Shown in pieces: positions 51,543-60,516 of a DNA stretch of 64,000 nucleotides. The position numbers and the translations under genes are program-made. How positions within the stretch are numbered: position 1 is the first letter of the stretch; each line of letters begins with the position of its first letter. Origin of the DNA: Chrysosporum bergii ANA360D. Lineage in GTDB: Bacteria > Cyanobacteriota > Cyanobacteriia > Cyanobacteriales > Nostocaceae. Location: the NCBI RefSeq assembly GCF_029891735.1, contig NZ_JANQDH010000013.1:1-64000 (forward strand), given 5' to 3'. The notes under the pieces were generated by a model. The model was not told the DNA's origin, did not search any database, and was given only the letters and a program-made list of their open reading frames with translations.

Positions 51543-52985
51543 GTGGGGGAGTCCGTGGCCAGTCAAAGAACTTCAGCAAAAGAAAACCAGTTAGCAAAAG
51601 CCCTGAAATGGAAAAACCAAGATGCTCAAAGACCTAAGTCTGGACGTTGGCTGTTGTTCTGGCTGGGTATGAGTGGTATTGCAATGGTATCAGCAACAGC
51701 AGGAGCGCTGTTAGCGGTCTCTCTGACCAGTACGCCATTACAACAAGCACAGTTGAGTCCCCAAGAAAAAGCGGTTTTTGATGGCGATCGCATCTCCGGT
51801 GGTGGGTTACGATTCTCAGAATTAACTCGCCCTGTTAATCTCTTGGTAATGGGAATGAGCGTACTTCCCTCTGACATTAATAATGCTCCCTCAGAATTGC
51901 AAAATCTAGGCTATCAACCACAGGTAAACTCTTTTGATGGGTTAGCCGATGTGATGATCTTGATCAAATTTGATCCGGAAACAAAAAAAATAGCCATGCT
52001 GTCCATTCCCAGGGACACCCGCACAGAAGTAGTTGGCTATGGAGTGAAAAAACTTAATGCTGCTAATGTTGATGGCGGGCCAGCCTTAACTGCTCAAAGT
52101 GTCAGTAATCTTTTGGGCGATGTACCCATTGATCGCTATGTCCGCATTAACGTTCTTGGTGTTGGTAAACTGGTTGATGCTTTGGGCGGGGTGACAGTAC
52201 ACGTTCCCAAAGATTTAAAATACCGGGATGACTCCCAACACTTGTATATTAACTTAAAAGCAGGTAAACAACATCTCAACGGCGATCAGGCTTTGCAACT
52301 ATTACGCTTTCGTAATGATGAACTCGGAGATATCGGCCGGGTCCAACGCCAACAAATGGTGATCCGGTCCTTGATAGACCAAACTCTTAACCCTATAACA
52401 CTGGCTCAATTACCTAAAATTCTCAACGTAGTTAAAGAAAATCTGGATACCAATTTAACAATTGAAGAATTGTTAGCTTTGGTAGGTTTTAGCGTGCGAA
52501 CCAACCGCTCCAATATGCATATGTTCATGTTACCAGGTCGCTTTAGCCAACAAGAAGAATACAATGCTAGTTATTGGATACCAGATCAAACTGCTATTGA
52601 ACGCATGATGTCTCAACACTTTGGCTTAGGATTAATCAGTGATATCCAACAGGTAAGCACTCGCCGTTTGCGAATATATATTCAAGATAGCACCGGCAGC
52701 GATCGCTCTGAACTAACTTCTATAACCGAAACTTTACAAGCGTCTGGATATCGCCACGTCAGAATATATACACCGTGGCATGAACCTTTAGATGTGACTA
52801 ACATTATCGCCCAGCAGGGAGATGGTGAAAATGCAGAGTTAATTCGCTCTTTATTGGGATTTGGGGAAGTGCGAGTGGAAAGCACCGGCGTTCTTAATTC
52901 TGATATTACTATCCAGTTGGGTAAAGATTGGTTACAACAAAAACTTCTCTTTCAATCCACAAAGTCAAATTTCTTTGCTCGCTAA
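51543..52985 (+). CDS. LytR-CpsA-Psr (LCP) family protein
   Basis: The 480-residue product has one N-terminal membrane helix (LLFWLGMSGIAMVSATAGAL). The LCP domain follows at about 95-330: PVNLLVMGMSV, DGLADVMILIKFDP, IAMLSIPRDTRTEV, DGGPALTAQSVSNLLG and RFRNDELGDIGRVQRQQMV, with its catalytic arginines. A C-terminal LytR_C-type domain (RRLRIYIQDSTGSDR) ends it. LCP enzymes attach polymers to peptidoglycan outside the membrane; in heterocystous cyanobacteria one (ConR) affects septum formation. Start GTG at 51543, or GTG at 51555 with GGGGAG before it. Confidence 0.88.
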   Translation: MGESVASQRTSAKENQLAKALKWKNQDAQRPKSGRWLLFWLGMSGIAMVSATAGALLAVSLTSTPLQQAQLSPQEKAVFDGDRISGGGLRFSELTRPVNLLVMGMSVLPSDINNAPSELQNLGYQPQVNSFDGLADVMILIKFDPETKKIAMLSIPRDTRTEVVGYGVKKLNAANVDGGPALTAQSVSNLLGDVPIDRYVRINVLGVGKLVDALGGVTVHVPKDLKYRDDSQHLYINLKAGKQHLNGDQALQLLRFRNDELGDIGRVQRQQMVIRSLIDQTLNPITLAQLPKILNVVKENLDTNLTIEELLALVGFSVRTNRSNMHMFMLPGRFSQQEEYNASYWIPDQTAIERMMSQHFGLGLISDIQQVSTRRLRIYIQDSTGSDRSELTSITETLQASGYRHVRIYTPWHEPLDVTNIIAQQGDGENAELIRSLLGFGEVRVESTGVLNSDITIQLGKDWLQQKLLFQSTKSNFFAR

Positions 52986-53010
52986 AAAAAACCCCTACGG
53001 GGGTTTTTCT
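52986..53010 (+). terminator. Rho-independent terminator of the LCP gene
   Basis: AAAAACCCC (to 52995) pairs with GGGGTTTTT (52999 on) around a loop of 3-4 bases, immediately after the stop codon. Confidence 0.85.
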
Positions 53011-53056: not shown

Positions 53057-54595
53057 ATGGACTGGATTACACTACTGCGATCGCTGCAAGCTGATTTTAT
53101 TAACAGGTTAAGATCAAGTTTTTTACTTCATTGTGAAATAGAAAGTCAACATAGTGAATTAACCATTATCTCCGGAGCAAGATTAAAAACATTACGAGAA
53201 TTTTGCTGGCTGATGGCTGAAAAATATAAACGCACTTCGCCAGTTCGTGATGTTTTTATTAACAATCTCAAAGGTAAACTAGGCGAAGAAGTTGTTAAAG
53301 AGCGTTTAGGTGATTTAATTACAGAAGTCGATTATGAAAAACGATTTGGCGGTGATGGTCATGTTGATTTTACTTTAACTTCCGACCCCACAATTGGTAT
53401 TGAGGTCAAATCTCGTCATGGTACTATTGATCAAGTGAGATGGTCAGTAAGTTCTCAAGAAGTCGCTAAAAATGCAGTGGTGGTGTGCATTTTAATTCAA
53501 GAAGAAGTTAACGAAGCACAACCAAAGTACCACCTTTTTTTAGCTGGTTTTTTGCCTACACAAATGATCAAGTTAAGAACTGGTAGAATATCCTTTGGTA
53601 TACATCAACTATTATATGGAGGTGGTTTGTGCTGCTATCTAGAACAGTTACAAAAATCAACTAATTCTCAAAACCCCCAATTATCACATTCAGATAAAAT
53701 TGACTATGGAGAAGTATTTTATATTCAACTAGGTGATGAATGTTTTGAGAAACATGATTATCAAGGGGCAATTACTAACTATAATCAAGCTTTGCAAATA
53801 AAAAAAGATATTGATATTTATTATAAATATGCTTTAAGTTCCTATAATTTAGGAGATTATCAAGCAGCTATCGTCAACTTTTCTCAAGCACTACAGTTAA
53901 ATTTTCATCATGCTAAAACATATCATTACAGAGGTTTAGCCCATTACCAACTGGGAAATTATCCAGAAGCAATAGACGATTATACCCAAGCAATCAGAAT
54001 TAATCCTCATCTTGCCATTGCTTATAAAAATCGTGCTGAAGTTCGCGCTGACATCGGAGATCATCAGGGAGCAATAGAGGATTACACTCAAGCAATCAAA
54101 ATTAATCCTGATTATGCCCATACTTACAAAAATCAGGCAATGGCACGTTATTTTATAGAATATCACCAAGGGTTTTCCCAAGCCCTCAAGGTTAACCCCC
54201 AGGATGCTCTTGCTTACAAAAACCGTGGTGATGCTCGTACTGATTTAGAAGATTATCAAGGCGCAATTGCAGACTATACCCAGGCTATACAGATTAATCC
54301 TGATTACGTAGATGCTTATTATAACCGTGGTAATGCTCATTATGATCTCGAGGATTACCAAGGAGCAATAGAAGATTACACCCGAACCATCAAGATTAAT
54401 CCCCAATATGCCCACGCCTATTATAATCGTGGTAATGTTTATGCTCAACTAGGAGATACACAGCCCGCCATTGACGATTTTCGTCAAGCAGCAGATATTT
54501 ATCGTCGATCCGGTAAACTAGAAGCACTTAAAGATGCTCGAGCCAGAGTGGCAGATTTAGAAATCGCCGAATCATTAGATATTTTGAATTTTTAA
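53057..54595 (+). CDS. PD-(D/E)XK-like nuclease domain fused to TPR repeats
   Basis: The 512-residue product carries, near residues 70-120, the segment GKLGEEVVKERLGD (E77/E78), GHVDFTLT (D104) and GIEVKSRHG (E116-x-K118). These match the E...D...ExK active site of PD-(D/E)XK nucleases. From about residue 230 it has eight TPR units, such as AIDDYTQAIRINPHLAIAY; one is contracted (EYHQGFSQALKVNP lacks about five residues). The ATG at 53057 was chosen because the upstream frame overlaps the LCP gene and its terminator. Nuclease activity is inferred; a DNA-binding or restriction-like role is possible. Confidence 0.72.
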   Translation: MDWITLLRSLQADFINRLRSSFLLHCEIESQHSELTIISGARLKTLREFCWLMAEKYKRTSPVRDVFINNLKGKLGEEVVKERLGDLITEVDYEKRFGGDGHVDFTLTSDPTIGIEVKSRHGTIDQVRWSVSSQEVAKNAVVVCILIQEEVNEAQPKYHLFLAGFLPTQMIKLRTGRISFGIHQLLYGGGLCCYLEQLQKSTNSQNPQLSHSDKIDYGEVFYIQLGDECFEKHDYQGAITNYNQALQIKKDIDIYYKYALSSYNLGDYQAAIVNFSQALQLNFHHAKTYHYRGLAHYQLGNYPEAIDDYTQAIRINPHLAIAYKNRAEVRADIGDHQGAIEDYTQAIKINPDYAHTYKNQAMARYFIEYHQGFSQALKVNPQDALAYKNRGDARTDLEDYQGAIADYTQAIQINPDYVDAYYNRGNAHYDLEDYQGAIEDYTRTIKINPQYAHAYYNRGNVYAQLGDTQPAIDDFRQAADIYRRSGKLEALKDARARVADLEIAESLDILNF

Positions 54596-55935: not shown

Positions 55936-58900
55936 ATGTCTACAATCAAACTGAATCTGCTTGGAAGCTACGCAACTAACATCTCTGGTAAAAGCGCTGC
56001 CGAGATTGCCGCTTATGATCCAACCACAAAACGCTTATTTGTCGTTAATGCCCACGCTCCCGCAGTAGACGTGCTAGATATTAGCGATGCGAGTAATCCC
56101 ACCAAACTATTTGAGATTGATCCGTCTGATTATGGGGACGGGGCTAACAGTGTAGCAGTATCTAACGGCATCGTCGCCATAGCCATTGAAAGTGATCCTA
56201 AGACAGACCCCGGCAAAGTCGTATTCTTCAACACAGACGGCGAATTCCTCAAGGAGGTCAACGTAGGTTCCCTCCCCGATATGCTAGTATTCACCCCTGA
56301 TGGCACTAAGGTACTAGTAGCCAACGAAGGAGAACCCAACGGGGACTACACCATCGATCCAGAAGGTTCCATCAGTATTATTGATATATCTGGGGGCATA
56401 GAAAACCTCAGCCAAGCCAATGTCGCCACCGTTGACTTCACCGCTTTTGATAACCAAAGCCAAGAACTAATTGATAGCGGAGTCCGCATATTTGGACCAA
56501 ACGCCACCGTAGCTCAAGACCTAGAACCAGAATACATAGCAGTCTCCGGTGATTCTAGCACCGCCTACGTAGCCCTCCAGGAAAACAACGCCATAGCAGT
56601 AGTAGATATTACTAATAGCATCGTCACAAATATATTACCCCTCGGCTATAAAGATCATAGTGTCAATTCCCTAGATGCTAGCGATCGCGACGACTCCATC
56701 AACATCACCAACTACGCCAATTTATATGGCATCTACCAACCAGATGCCATCGCCGCTTACGAAACTAACGGTCAAACCTACATTGTCACCAGTAATGAAG
56801 GTGATGCCAGAGACTATGACGGTTTTAAAGAAGAAGCCCGCGTTAAAGACCTAATACTTGACCGGGATGCTTTCCCCAATGCCCGTGACCTCCAACGGGA
56901 TCAAAACCTCGGTCGCCTCACCATCACCACCACCAAAGGTATTAGCAACAACAAATTTTTTAAATCCCAACTTTCAGGAGATCAAGAAACAACTCCTGTA
57001 ACTACCGAGGCCACAGGTACAGCCGTCCTTAAACTCAACGACGATGCCACCGCCCTCAGCTATGAAGCTCGTGTCACAGGTCTAGATTTTGGATCCATCC
57101 TTGGCTTGGATGCTCAAACCCCTGACACTGCTGATGATGTCACAGGTTTACACATCCACACAGCACCCGCAGGACAAAACGGCCCTGTGGTATTCAACAT
57201 TTTATCCAACCCCGACTCAAACTTTACCATCAACGAAGATGGTTCCACAACCCTCACAGGTATTTGGGATGATATTGCAAATTTTGCCACAGACCTAGGT
57301 AATGCCGAAACCAACCAAGAAGTAGACTTGTATTTTAACGTCCACACAGTAGCCAACCCTAGTGGTGAAATTCGCGGACAACTGACCTCCACCCCAGCTT
57401 ACAATGAGCTATACGCCTTTGGCGGACGTTCTTTTAGTATTTGGGATACCCAAGGCAACCTGGTCTATGACAGTGGCGCAGAGTTTGAGCAGAAAATCAG
57501 CCAACTCTTCCCTAATGATTTTGATGATACTCGCAGTGACAACAAGGGACCAGAACCAGAAGGAGTAACTATTGGTGAAGTTAATGACCGTACCTATGCC
57601 TTTATTACTCTTGAACGCACAGGTGGGGTCATGACCTATGACATCACTAACCCTGCTGAAGCTTTCTTTGTGGACTACGTTAATAATCGTGATACCGACA
57701 TTAGTCCAGAAGGTGTGCTTTTTATCCCCCCAGATAGCCCCAACCAAAACCCCCTGGTAGCAGTAGCCAATGAAGTCAGTGGAACCACTTCTTTATTTGA
57801 AGTTACAACCGTACCTTACACCCTGCAATTGTTCCACTTTGCTGACCAAGAAGCTGGTATTCCTGCTTTTGATGATGCCCCCCGCTTTTCTGCTGTACTC
57901 AATGCCCTGAAAGCACAGGACATTGATAACGACGGAGTGCCAGGCTCACCAAATACTCTAATTCTCTCTTCTGGGGATGCCTATATTCCAGGGCTGTTCT
58001 TCAGTGCATCAGAAACCCCTTATGGTGCCCTTGGTCGGGGAGATATTCTCATTCAAAACGCCTTGGGAGTACAAGCCATAGCCTTTGGTAATCATGAATT
58101 TGACCTTGGTACACAAGTCATTAAAAACTTAATTGCATCTGATGAAGCGGCTAGTTATCCCGGCACAGCCTTCCCTTACTTAAGTTCTAACCTGGACTTT
58201 AGTACTGATAGTAACCTGGCTGACCTGGTAGTAGACGACGACCAAGCCTCCTTACCCAACAGCATCGCCGCCAGCGTATTCATTGACGTTAATGGAGAAA
58301 AAATCGGAGTAGTGGGTGCTACCACCCCCACCCTGCGTGTGATATCCAGTCCTGGGAATGTGACAGTTAACCCCAGTCCTTTTAATGGTAATCCCACCCC
58401 TGAACAGCTAGACGCTTTAGCTGGGGAAATTCAAGCTGATGTGGATGCTCTGCTAACTGCTAATCCTGATTTAAATAAAGTAGTACTGCTGGCTCATATG
58501 CAGCAGTTATTCATTGAGCAGGAGTTGGCGACCCGTCTGCGTCATGTTGATATTATCGTCGCCGGAGGTTCCAATACACGTCTGTTGGATAACAATGACC
58601 GACTCCGGTCCGGGGATAGCAACCAAGGTACTTATCCTACTTTCAAAACTGATGCCGACGGAAAACCAGTAGCTGTGGTGAATACTGATGGTAACTACAA
58701 GTATGTGGGGCGGTTAGTTGTTGATTTTGATGCCAATGGGGTGATTATCCCCGATAGCTATGACCCAGATATTAGTGGAGCTTATGCTACTGATGCTCAG
58801 GGTGTAGCAGACTTAGGGGCAGAAAATCTGGTTAATCCAGAAGTTCAAGCAGTTGTGGATAGTCTGCGGGAGATAGTTGTTCAGCAGGAAAGCAACGTTT

Positions 58901-60516
58901 TTGGCATTAGTACAGTGTATCTCAACGGCGATCGCTCCAGTGTGCGCCGACAAGAAACCAACCTAGGGAACCTCACAGCTGATGCTAACCTAGCCATAGC
59001 CAAACAAACCGACCCAGAAGTAGTGATTTCCCTCAAAAACGGAGGGGGTATTCGCAATAGCATCGGTAGAGTAGTAGTCCCCACAGGTAGCACGGGTAAT
59101 GTTGAAAGACTACCCAATGAAGCCGTCGTAGATAGTGATGGTGATGTTGTCAAACCCACCGGGGGAATCTCAGAAAACGACATCGCCAACGCCCTAAGTT
59201 TTAACAATGGCTTAACTTTAATCACTGTCACCGCCACAAAACTTTTAGCCTTAGTAGAACACGCTGTTGCTTCTACCACAGTAGCGGATACTACTACCCC
59301 AGGGGCTTTTCCCCAAATTGCAGGTTTCTCCTTTAGCTTTGACCCCCGTGAAGAACCGGGTAACCGTGTCCTGTCTTTAGCCATTGAAGACGAAAACGGC
59401 AGAGATTTGGATGTGCTGGTTCGAGATGGGGAAATTGTCGGCGACCCTAACCGCAGTTTCCGTATGGTCACCCTCAACTATCTAGCCGGCGGTGGTGACG
59501 GCTATCCATTCCCCACAGGAGAAACCGCTAACCGAGTAGACTTAGCACAACCTGAAGAAGCTACTCGCACTGGGGAAGCGAATTTTGTTCCCGATGGTAC
59601 AGAGCAAGATGCTTTGGCTGAGTATTTATTTGATAACTTCCTCATCACACCTTTTGGTGCAGCCGACACCACAAGAGACTTAGACTCACGCATCCAAAAC
59701 CTGGCTTTCCAAGAAGATACTGTGATTTCCCCCCCCAGAATTCTCAGCGGTAGTGCTGGTGATGATAACCAAACCCTAACTAGTGCAGATACAGGTTTGA
59801 CCGTCTTCACAGGAAATGGTGATGACCAAATAGAAGCCAGTGAAACTGCTATGGTAGAAATACACGCAGGGGATGGCAATGATACAGTTTTTATAAGTAG
59901 CCAAACTTACGTAAATGGCGGTGCTGGAGATGACATGATCTTCATTGGGACTACAAGTCCTAGTGGTAACAGTTTGGCAAATGGAGGCACTGACAGAGAT
60001 ACCCTCATCATTATCGAAGCAAGCGAATCTAACATCCTCTTGGGAGGGGCTGACGATGATGAACTGGAAGTTGCCCAAGGAAGAGATCAGCTGCTGTTTG
60101 GTGGTTCTGATCGCGACTTCCTGCGCTCCAGTGCAGAGGGGCATAATCGCCTCTACGCTGGTTCTGGGGATGATGTTTTGTATTCGCAAATAAGCGATCG
60201 CCTCTTTGGTGGAGATGGTAACGACCAGCTTTACGCAGGAGAAGGTGGTGATAATCAACTCTGGGGTGGAACAGGTGAAGATGAATTTTGGTTAGTAGTG
60301 GGTGGTTCCTTACCCAATGCTCTCAATGTGGTTAAAGATTTTCAAGTAGGAACTGACCGCATTCGTATGGGTAGTATTACTGCTGACCAAGTAAGTTTGG
60401 TCAATCAGAACAATCACACCTTAATTCAGGTTGACAGTAGTGATGTGGCTTTATTAGAGATGGTAAACCCCACTCAACTTGACGTGAATAACCCCGGTCA
60501 ATTCCTCTTTGCTTAA
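55936..60516 (+). CDS. RTX exoprotein: choice-of-anchor I domain with CHRD insert plus 5'-nucleotidase-like phosphatase
   Basis: The 1526-residue product begins with a beta-propeller-like 'choice-of-anchor I' domain (about 1-620), e.g. LPDMLVFTPDGTKVLVANEGEPNGDY. It is interrupted by a CHRD domain (about 339-483, VTGLHIHTAPAGQNGPVVF). A calcineurin-like/5'-nucleotidase part (about 630-1240) has GNHEFDLG near 718 and LAHMQQ near 853. The usual DxH is FADQE and the usual GHxH is GGSNT, so several metal ligands are replaced. RTX calcium repeats (about 1270-1445) and a C-terminal module shared with the lipase gene end it. Secreted, likely phosphate-scavenging or surface; catalysis uncertain. Confidence 0.82.
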   Translation: MSTIKLNLLGSYATNISGKSAAEIAAYDPTTKRLFVVNAHAPAVDVLDISDASNPTKLFEIDPSDYGDGANSVAVSNGIVAIAIESDPKTDPGKVVFFNTDGEFLKEVNVGSLPDMLVFTPDGTKVLVANEGEPNGDYTIDPEGSISIIDISGGIENLSQANVATVDFTAFDNQSQELIDSGVRIFGPNATVAQDLEPEYIAVSGDSSTAYVALQENNAIAVVDITNSIVTNILPLGYKDHSVNSLDASDRDDSINITNYANLYGIYQPDAIAAYETNGQTYIVTSNEGDARDYDGFKEEARVKDLILDRDAFPNARDLQRDQNLGRLTITTTKGISNNKFFKSQLSGDQETTPVTTEATGTAVLKLNDDATALSYEARVTGLDFGSILGLDAQTPDTADDVTGLHIHTAPAGQNGPVVFNILSNPDSNFTINEDGSTTLTGIWDDIANFATDLGNAETNQEVDLYFNVHTVANPSGEIRGQLTSTPAYNELYAFGGRSFSIWDTQGNLVYDSGAEFEQKISQLFPNDFDDTRSDNKGPEPEGVTIGEVNDRTYAFITLERTGGVMTYDITNPAEAFFVDYVNNRDTDISPEGVLFIPPDSPNQNPLVAVANEVSGTTSLFEVTTVPYTLQLFHFADQEAGIPAFDDAPRFSAVLNALKAQDIDNDGVPGSPNTLILSSGDAYIPGLFFSASETPYGALGRGDILIQNALGVQAIAFGNHEFDLGTQVIKNLIASDEAASYPGTAFPYLSSNLDFSTDSNLADLVVDDDQASLPNSIAASVFIDVNGEKIGVVGATTPTLRVISSPGNVTVNPSPFNGNPTPEQLDALAGEIQADVDALLTANPDLNKVVLLAHMQQLFIEQELATRLRHVDIIVAGGSNTRLLDNNDRLRSGDSNQGTYPTFKTDADGKPVAVVNTDGNYKYVGRLVVDFDANGVIIPDSYDPDISGAYATDAQGVADLGAENLVNPEVQAVVDSLREIVVQQESNVFGISTVYLNGDRSSVRRQETNLGNLTADANLAIAKQTDPEVVISLKNGGGIRNSIGRVVVPTGSTGNVERLPNEAVVDSDGDVVKPTGGISENDIANALSFNNGLTLITVTATKLLALVEHAVASTTVADTTTPGAFPQIAGFSFSFDPREEPGNRVLSLAIEDENGRDLDVLVRDGEIVGDPNRSFRMVTLNYLAGGGDGYPFPTGETANRVDLAQPEEATRTGEANFVPDGTEQDALAEYLFDNFLITPFGAADTTRDLDSRIQNLAFQEDTVISPPRILSGSAGDDNQTLTSADTGLTVFTGNGDDQIEASETAMVEIHAGDGNDTVFISSQTYVNGGAGDDMIFIGTTSPSGNSLANGGTDRDTLIIIEASESNILLGGADDDELEVAQGRDQLLFGGSDRDFLRSSAEGHNRLYAGSGDDVLYSQISDRLFGGDGNDQLYAGEGGDNQLWGGTGEDEFWLVVGGSLPNALNVVKDFQVGTDRIRMGSITADQVSLVNQNNHTLIQVDSSDVALLEMVNPTQLDVNNPGQFLFA

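Follow-up and report, generated by a model that had tools for sequence, protein, structure and literature searches.

We found that a gene in the window, the 64,000-nucleotide stretch of Chrysosporum bergii ANA360D DNA analyzed here, encodes a protein in which a predicted PD-(D/E)XK nuclease domain (N-domain) is followed by eight TPRs. Our best explanation is that this protein is a sensor-effector, a repeat-gated, metal-dependent nuclease, and we give that whole statement a probability of roughly 0.6. The readings weighed against it below overlap with it, and our estimates do not sum to one. The gene has the following features.

53057 to 54595, + strand: whole gene, 512 aa, ATG start (ORF translation; homologue similarity starts there)
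53057 to 53674, + strand: predicted N-terminal PD-(D/E)XK nuclease domain, residues 1 to 206 (AlphaFold model, structure matches, homologues)
53285 to 53287, + strand: E77, acidic residue in the first core helix (100/100 rows; 41/41 intact rows)
53366 to 53368, + strand: D104, putative metal-binding aspartate (100/100 rows; 40/41 intact rows, one N)
53402 to 53410, + strand: E116-V117-K118, (E/Q)xK motif in strand 114-121 (position 116, E in 97, Q in 2, A in 1; K118 in 100/100)
53675 to 53710, + strand: variable linker, residues 207 to 218 (length differs among orthologues)
53711 to 54511, + strand: eight TPRs, residues 219 to 485 (Pfam; repeat register; helices in the full-length model)
54116 to 54205, + strand: short fifth TPR, residues 354 to 383, 30 aa (spacing of 64 in 82/99 orthologue loci; low confidence at 358-376 in the full-length model)
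54512 to 54592, + strand: C-terminal helix and conserved tail ...LEIAESLDILNF (tail variants among orthologues; helix 488-509 in the full-length model)
52987 to 53008, + strand: terminator-like hairpin following the upstream LCP gene (1 found versus 1.0 expected in shuffles, and so weak)

The reading frame is mechanically open from a TTG at 52928 in the ORF reading of the window. Sequence comparison showed that similarity to homologues begins only at the ATG at 53057 (MDW...), and thus 512 aa is the correct length. An earlier note on this DNA, made from the sequence, had read a nuclease-like N-terminal domain fused to TPRs here. We found that the ORF is real and that this architecture holds, with the N-domain at about residues 1 to 206 and the repeats at 219 to 485. 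By Pfam, the upstream neighbor is an LCP-family gene and the downstream neighbor a CN-hydrolase gene. The hairpin would, weakly, place the gene in its own transcription unit. An operon with these neighbors was rejected, since relatives of the CN-hydrolase occur in only 3/99 orthologue loci and relatives of the LCP gene in only 5/99. No conserved gene order was found around the orthologue, and the commonest neighbor family occurs in 17/99 loci. Elsewhere in the window, a 1526-aa protein (55936 to 60516, + strand) has a choice-of-anchor I region by NCBIfam, with weaker 5'-nucleotidase-like and RTX-like calcium-binding matches.

The N-domain had no accepted match in Pfam, NCBIfam, or PADLOC (residues 1 to 221) or in PHROGs (residues 1 to 212). 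Pfam returned FAD_SOX alone (E, 0.12, below its cutoff) and PADLOC TmtA alone (E, 0.051); NCBIfam returned nothing at an E of ≤1 and PHROGs nothing at 0.1. In particular, the Pfam search of residues 1 to 221 gave no match to DUF4365/DREN (PF14280) at an E of ≤1 and none to Mrr_cat (PF04471), and a profile search gave no PF14280 match in the window's genome. Profile-profile comparison was likewise not significant for DUF4365 (hhalign probability, 2.5; E, 0.018) or Mrr_cat (probability, 1.9; E, 0.026), so we rejected homology to either by sequence; both alignments line up the D and (E/Q)xK columns with those of the N-domain. Homology to a PDB chain by sequence was also rejected, as the profile search returned no nuclease and its best match was eL30 (E, 0.076). 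A stand-alone paralogue (L066) gave weak matches to RRG7 (E, 0.041) and to an unknown PHROG (E, 0.0074), which we do not use as support. Among the literature titles searched, a set that lacked the key survey of the PD-(D/E)XK superfamily by Steczkiewicz et al. (2012), none describes the family. It may have been listed before, since the accessible part of PMC7159879 presents an REase clade as not reported until then, and the family could overlap with it. Thus, the fold and the TPRs are of known kinds, and the N-domain family is unnamed in the libraries searched.

In contrast to the sequence searches, structure comparison returned nuclease folds, whose absence would have counted against the earlier note. 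An AlphaFold model of residues 1 to 212, built on a 25-row alignment, had a pLDDT of 88.9 and a pTM of 0.86. This confident model has the elements of the PD-(D/E)XK core in order, with helix 63-87, strands 88-90, 105-107, and 114-121, helix 133-138, and strand 141-147. The catalytic positions fall at the right elements: E77 lies in helix 63-87, D104 immediately precedes strand 105-107, and positions 116 and 118 belong to strand 114-121. VIA-align matched the model to 305 chains with a Z of at least 2, six of them with a Z of at least 8. In the best 50 of the 305, the titles are those of nucleases or nuclease complexes except for 1rzn (penicillin-binding protein-related factor A), which we take to be RecU, and the matches listed presumably all share the PD-(D/E)XK fold. 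The Z scores were 9.3 for I-Ssp6803I, 8.2 for NhoI, 7.7 for the SPARDA nuclease, 7.5 for Eco15I, 7.5 for Hjc, 7.4 for D212, 7.1 for DpnI, and 6.1 for PvuII. Foldseek gave probabilities of 1.00 for Hjc (2wcw) and 0.87 for SPARDA. Its top rows, HincII and EcoRV, superpose poorly (root mean square deviation, about 14 to 17 Å), and we do not rely on HincII, which had the best E values (from 2.3e-4) but a deviation near 15 Å. Only 2 of the 335 Foldseek matches reached an E of ≤0.001, and the last row among the matches listed is a non-nuclease with a probability of 0.09. In a model of the full-length protein, pLDDT was below 50 over most of residues 1 to 216 and the N-domain was unfolded, likely because the alignment used there contained orthologues only. 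We regard a PD-(D/E)XK fold of residues 1 to 206 as highly probable.

The E...D...ExK pattern that had been noticed in the N-terminal 120 residues corresponds to E77, D104, E116, and K118. A loose form of this motif arises in 697 of 2,000 shuffles of residues 1 to 221, and the motif by itself is weak evidence; its weight comes from residue conservation and the predicted fold. We aligned the window protein with 99 orthologue loci, which were drawn from two overlapping collections and include some contigs apparently twice (e.g., L078/L099 and L080/L132), so that the counts are not of independent species. E77, D104, and K118 were invariant in all 100 rows, and position 116 was E or Q in 99, the exception being an A in L088. 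Mean identity over the 99 loci was 83% in the N-domain versus 61% in the repeat region. We also examined 41 diverse rows with an intact catalytic set, a class that also took in L064, with N at 104, and L088, with A at 116. Among these, position 116 was Q in 23, E in 17, and A in 1, and 15 of 215 columns were invariant, E77 and K118 included. The conservation of the D and E-x-K residues is therefore borne out, with the qualification that diverse rows often have Q116 and that 10 divergent rows lack the set. With this conservation and the fold model against it, a chance motif in an unrelated TPR protein is barely credible, even at the shuffle frequency above. Judging from these residues, the N-domain is likely to have nuclease activity.

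The 10 divergent rows bear on a different reading, in which the main work of the domain is to bind nucleic acid or a partner, with catalysis playing a minor part or none. In a tree of 51 rows, the catalytic set was kept in 41 and lost in 10. One loss event fits the tree, with the lost rows on long branches and weak support (65/89). The letters read at the site in divergent rows vary with the alignment used (A-EM or AGEM for L071). These rows keep 86% of 13 other invariant residues versus 30% of E77, D104, and K118. The 30% is partly so by definition, since lacking the set is what defined these rows, which amount to about five independent lineages. Noncatalytic positions conserved in the domain include Q11, F14, R17, E34, and Y187. 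Our best reading is that they form a pseudonuclease branch, and their retained residues suggest that the domain is still constrained without its active site and seems to have a function that does not need one. In addition, open frames of 588 to 631 aa with a family match occur, by eye, in 36 of the 43 family genomes sampled, and the three members of this size class that we examined (L072, L073, and L093, with L073 assigned by its likeness to L072) are WD40 fusions that lack the catalytic set. A mere scaffold, however, would not need the residues that are invariant in the window protein's own clade, and we regard a scaffold role for the window protein as improbable. The window's genome (3.9 Mb, 120 contigs, 98.5% complete) gave a single family match, the catalytic orthologue; G103, G170, G177, and G178 also gave one match each. 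The single match in the window's genome argues against an obligate pair of catalytic and pseudonuclease proteins.

Next to the N-domain, we found eight TPRs, as the earlier note had counted. A register search placed starts at residues 219, 252, 286, 320, 354, 384, 418, and 452, that at 354 being read from the sequence; an extra start at 459 is spurious, only seven residues after 452. Pfam TPR_1 matched seven stretches (E, 1.4e-58) as tandem 34-residue repeats. One repeat was said to have lost about five residues; the fifth is indeed short, but by four (30 versus 34). The resulting spacing of 64 (34 plus 30) recurs in 82 of the 99 orthologue loci, with 63 in five others (L081, L100, L101, L102, and L128) and the remaining 12 otherwise shaped. 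Because the spacing recurs, the short repeat is not damage to the window gene; it is ancestral and common to most orthologues. In the full-length model, pLDDT falls below 50 at 358-376 between well-predicted repeats, and a superhelix kinked at repeat five is plausible.

Paralogues carry the N-domain with other partners. In some, it is followed by TPRs in varying number; in others, by TPRs and one to three GUN4 stretches (L056 to L058 and L061) or by WD40 repeats (L072, L073, L093, L071, L215, and L204, with L073 again by likeness). As read, L067 has TPRs and WD40 after the N-domain, with WD40 among the Pfam matches listed. L064 and L065 have pentapeptide repeats ahead of the N-domain, and L066, if read from its first start codon, consists of the N-domain alone. 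Two further paralogue loci stood out. In a TPR and GUN4 paralogue (L207:3345-5615; GUN4 assigned from its resemblance to L056), an in-frame stop near residue 150 splits the protein inside the nuclease domain. At L206:3581-4952 (G176:C6:200580-201951), a DUF4365 nuclease fragment covering profile positions 3 to 90 immediately precedes a TPR paralogue on the same strand.

We propose that in the window protein, E77, D104, E116, and K118 of residues 1 to 206 would bind Mg2+ and cut a nucleic acid backbone, as the conserved residues suggest. The eight-TPR solenoid with its irregular fifth repeat may bind a partner protein, and this binding would recruit or assemble the nuclease and so switch it on. 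The paralogues, which keep the nuclease and exchange the sensor (TPR plus GUN4, WD40, or pentapeptide), would put one effector on different signals. That the TPR array senses a protein signal, as the earlier note had raised, is favored by this swapping. If the repeat-gated reading is true, most sampled family genomes carry a regulated nuclease that is unnamed in the libraries searched and that belongs to a protein family in which one effector bears pigment-linked (GUN4), TPR, and WD40 sensors. Related genomes conserve copies of the domain that have the active site and copies that lack it, and this would then be a natural experiment that makes a noncatalytic function of a PD-(D/E)XK domain testable.

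We examined how widely the gene is distributed. The N-domain had a match in 216 of 217 family genomes; 198 of the 217 had, counted by eye, a match of orthologue grade (E < 1e-95), and G096 had two. In the phylum sample, 57 of 386 genomes had a member, all within the same order. Named genomes with close homologues come from Nostoc, Anabaena, Nodularia, Dolichospermum, and similar genera, which makes the window's genome Nostocaceae-like. In relatives assembled into few contigs, the gene lies on megabase contigs (e.g., G103:C1, 5.46 Mb) and is thus chromosomal there. A link to nitrogen fixation was rejected: by nifH profile, 11/14 genomes without an orthologue-grade match and 10/14 with one passed the cutoff (28 chosen genomes, 21 positive), and several nifH misses are split genes. 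The window's genome is itself such a case outside the window, with nifH divided into two same-strand parts separated by about 8.6 kb (G000:C2:19071-28552; profile positions 1 to 154 and 137 to 274), as if a DNA element interrupts it; similar splits occur in several relatives.

The main rival to a repeat-gated nuclease is a housekeeping enzyme of genome maintenance or RNA processing, constitutive and untriggered, whose TPRs dock a constant partner such as a repair or replication complex. It is consistent with the near-core orthologue, the conserved eight-repeat plan and C-terminal tail, the Holliday junction resolvases among the structure matches, and our finding neither phage or viral copies nor a clear defense context. 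Against it, most of the sampled phylum genomes have no match, no orthologue-grade match was found in 19 of the 217 family genomes, including near-complete ones (e.g., G034), and the sensors are swapped among paralogues. We consider this rival a real possibility, if not a probable one. In our best explanation, too, the near-core window gene probably has a housekeeping or stress role rather than belonging to an acquired defense island.

We also looked for a defense context. In the whole protein, PADLOC found TPR models only (E, 1.4e-4 and 0.093). We then took up to three ORFs of at least 130 aa per side at 18 loci per group and searched PADLOC at an E of ≤1e-10. The 96 orthologue neighbors matched 39 PADLOC families; in the best 25 listed, mad3 occurred in 3/96, HEAT-ARM_XIII in 2/96, and the others in 1/96, all without a background rate. 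The 91 paralogue neighbors matched 77 families; in the best 25 listed, mad3 occurred in 8/91, AriA in 7/91, and the PD-T4-6, MkoA, LmuB, mad6, and PDC-S03 models in 2/91 each, again without a background rate. Pfam matches among the 91 included AAA_21 (7), ABC_tran (6), and Uma2 (4). We take the neighbor PADLOC models to be mostly generic ATPase- or kinase-like ones, and for that reason we do not count these matches as support for defense. The defense-island idea was set aside, as the few and mostly generic matches near the orthologues give no clear defense context; the paralogue count is higher. A mobilizable plasmid of Calothrix brevissima (AP018213.1) carries, near KAP P-loop and NACHT genes, a WD40 paralogue with an intact catalytic motif that is annotated as a DnaJ-domain protein (L204:8001-16047).

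These observations bear on whether the protein could be an anti-phage or cell suicide effector, as in SPARDA. The higher paralogue count and the Calothrix plasmid point that way, as does the structural similarity of the N-domain to DREN. So do the GUN4, TPR, and beta-propeller parts that the accessible part of PMC7159879 places, with its new REase clade, in NTP-dependent conflict systems. However, the neighbor models are mostly generic, the N-domain had no match in the phage records or viral contigs searched and a distant member in three plasmid records, and a near-core distribution is unusual for such systems. We therefore consider an anti-phage role unlikely for the window protein.

A broader picture is a long shot. 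It supposes a cyanobacterial assembly-gated module with catalytic and dead versions, in which TPR, WD40, tetrapyrrole-binding GUN4, or pentapeptide sensors would nucleate oligomers. Catalytic copies would cut, pseudonuclease copies would join or cap the assembly and set its threshold, and the whole could act as a near-core cell fate or stress switch in multicellular cyanobacteria.

Finally, we compared the window protein with known systems. It shares with the conflict systems of PMC7159879 the same pool of sensor modules and effectors of the REase fold; unlike it, those systems, in the part of that source available, are NTP dependent and have characteristic gene neighborhoods, and no conserved neighborhood was seen around the orthologues of the window gene. 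The archaeal Holliday junction resolvases Hjc (PDB 1gef and 2wcw) resemble the N-domain in fold (Z, 7.5 and 6.9), but they are small stand-alone chains and gave no sequence match to it in the PDB profile search. The BisI-family or Mrr-like PD-QXK enzymes NhoI and Eco15I share the motif Q of the N-domain paralogues, and QXK marks a PD-QXK or Mrr-like subgroup known from other enzymes in the accessible text of PMC11347163. They differ in that, by the same text, they read modified DNA, and the Mrr_cat profile was not significant for the N-domain. The best structure match, the homing endonuclease I-Ssp6803I (PDB 2ost), aligns with residues 64 to 204 over 120 residues at 2.7 Å. It has a PD-(D/E)XK fold by the title of Zhao et al. 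2007, as cited in PMC12205087, but it differs as a tetrameric homing enzyme without repeats, with 11% identity to the N-domain.

The DREN (DUF4365) domain of the SPARDA short Argonaute (PDB 9qcc and 9jt2; Z, 7.7 and 6.0) offers a parallel for the proposed switch. The DREN structures among the matches listed scored below the tool's Z mark of 8 (7.7, 6.8, 6.3, 6.0, and 5.7), and DREN is joined to APAZ, whereas the window N-domain is joined to repeats and has no Pfam DUF4365 match and a weak profile match. The accessible part of PMC12205087 gives D41, Q60, and K62 as the catalytic residues of DREN, on a PD-(D/E)XK fold resembling I-Ssp6803I. They come in the same order as D104, (E/Q)116, and K118 of the N-domain, and their D...QxK form is that of its paralogues. 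The same part describes DREN alone as monomeric with undetectable activity and as active once filament formation yields a tetramer. By analogy, assembly could be the switch that turns on the proposed repeat-gated nuclease of the window.
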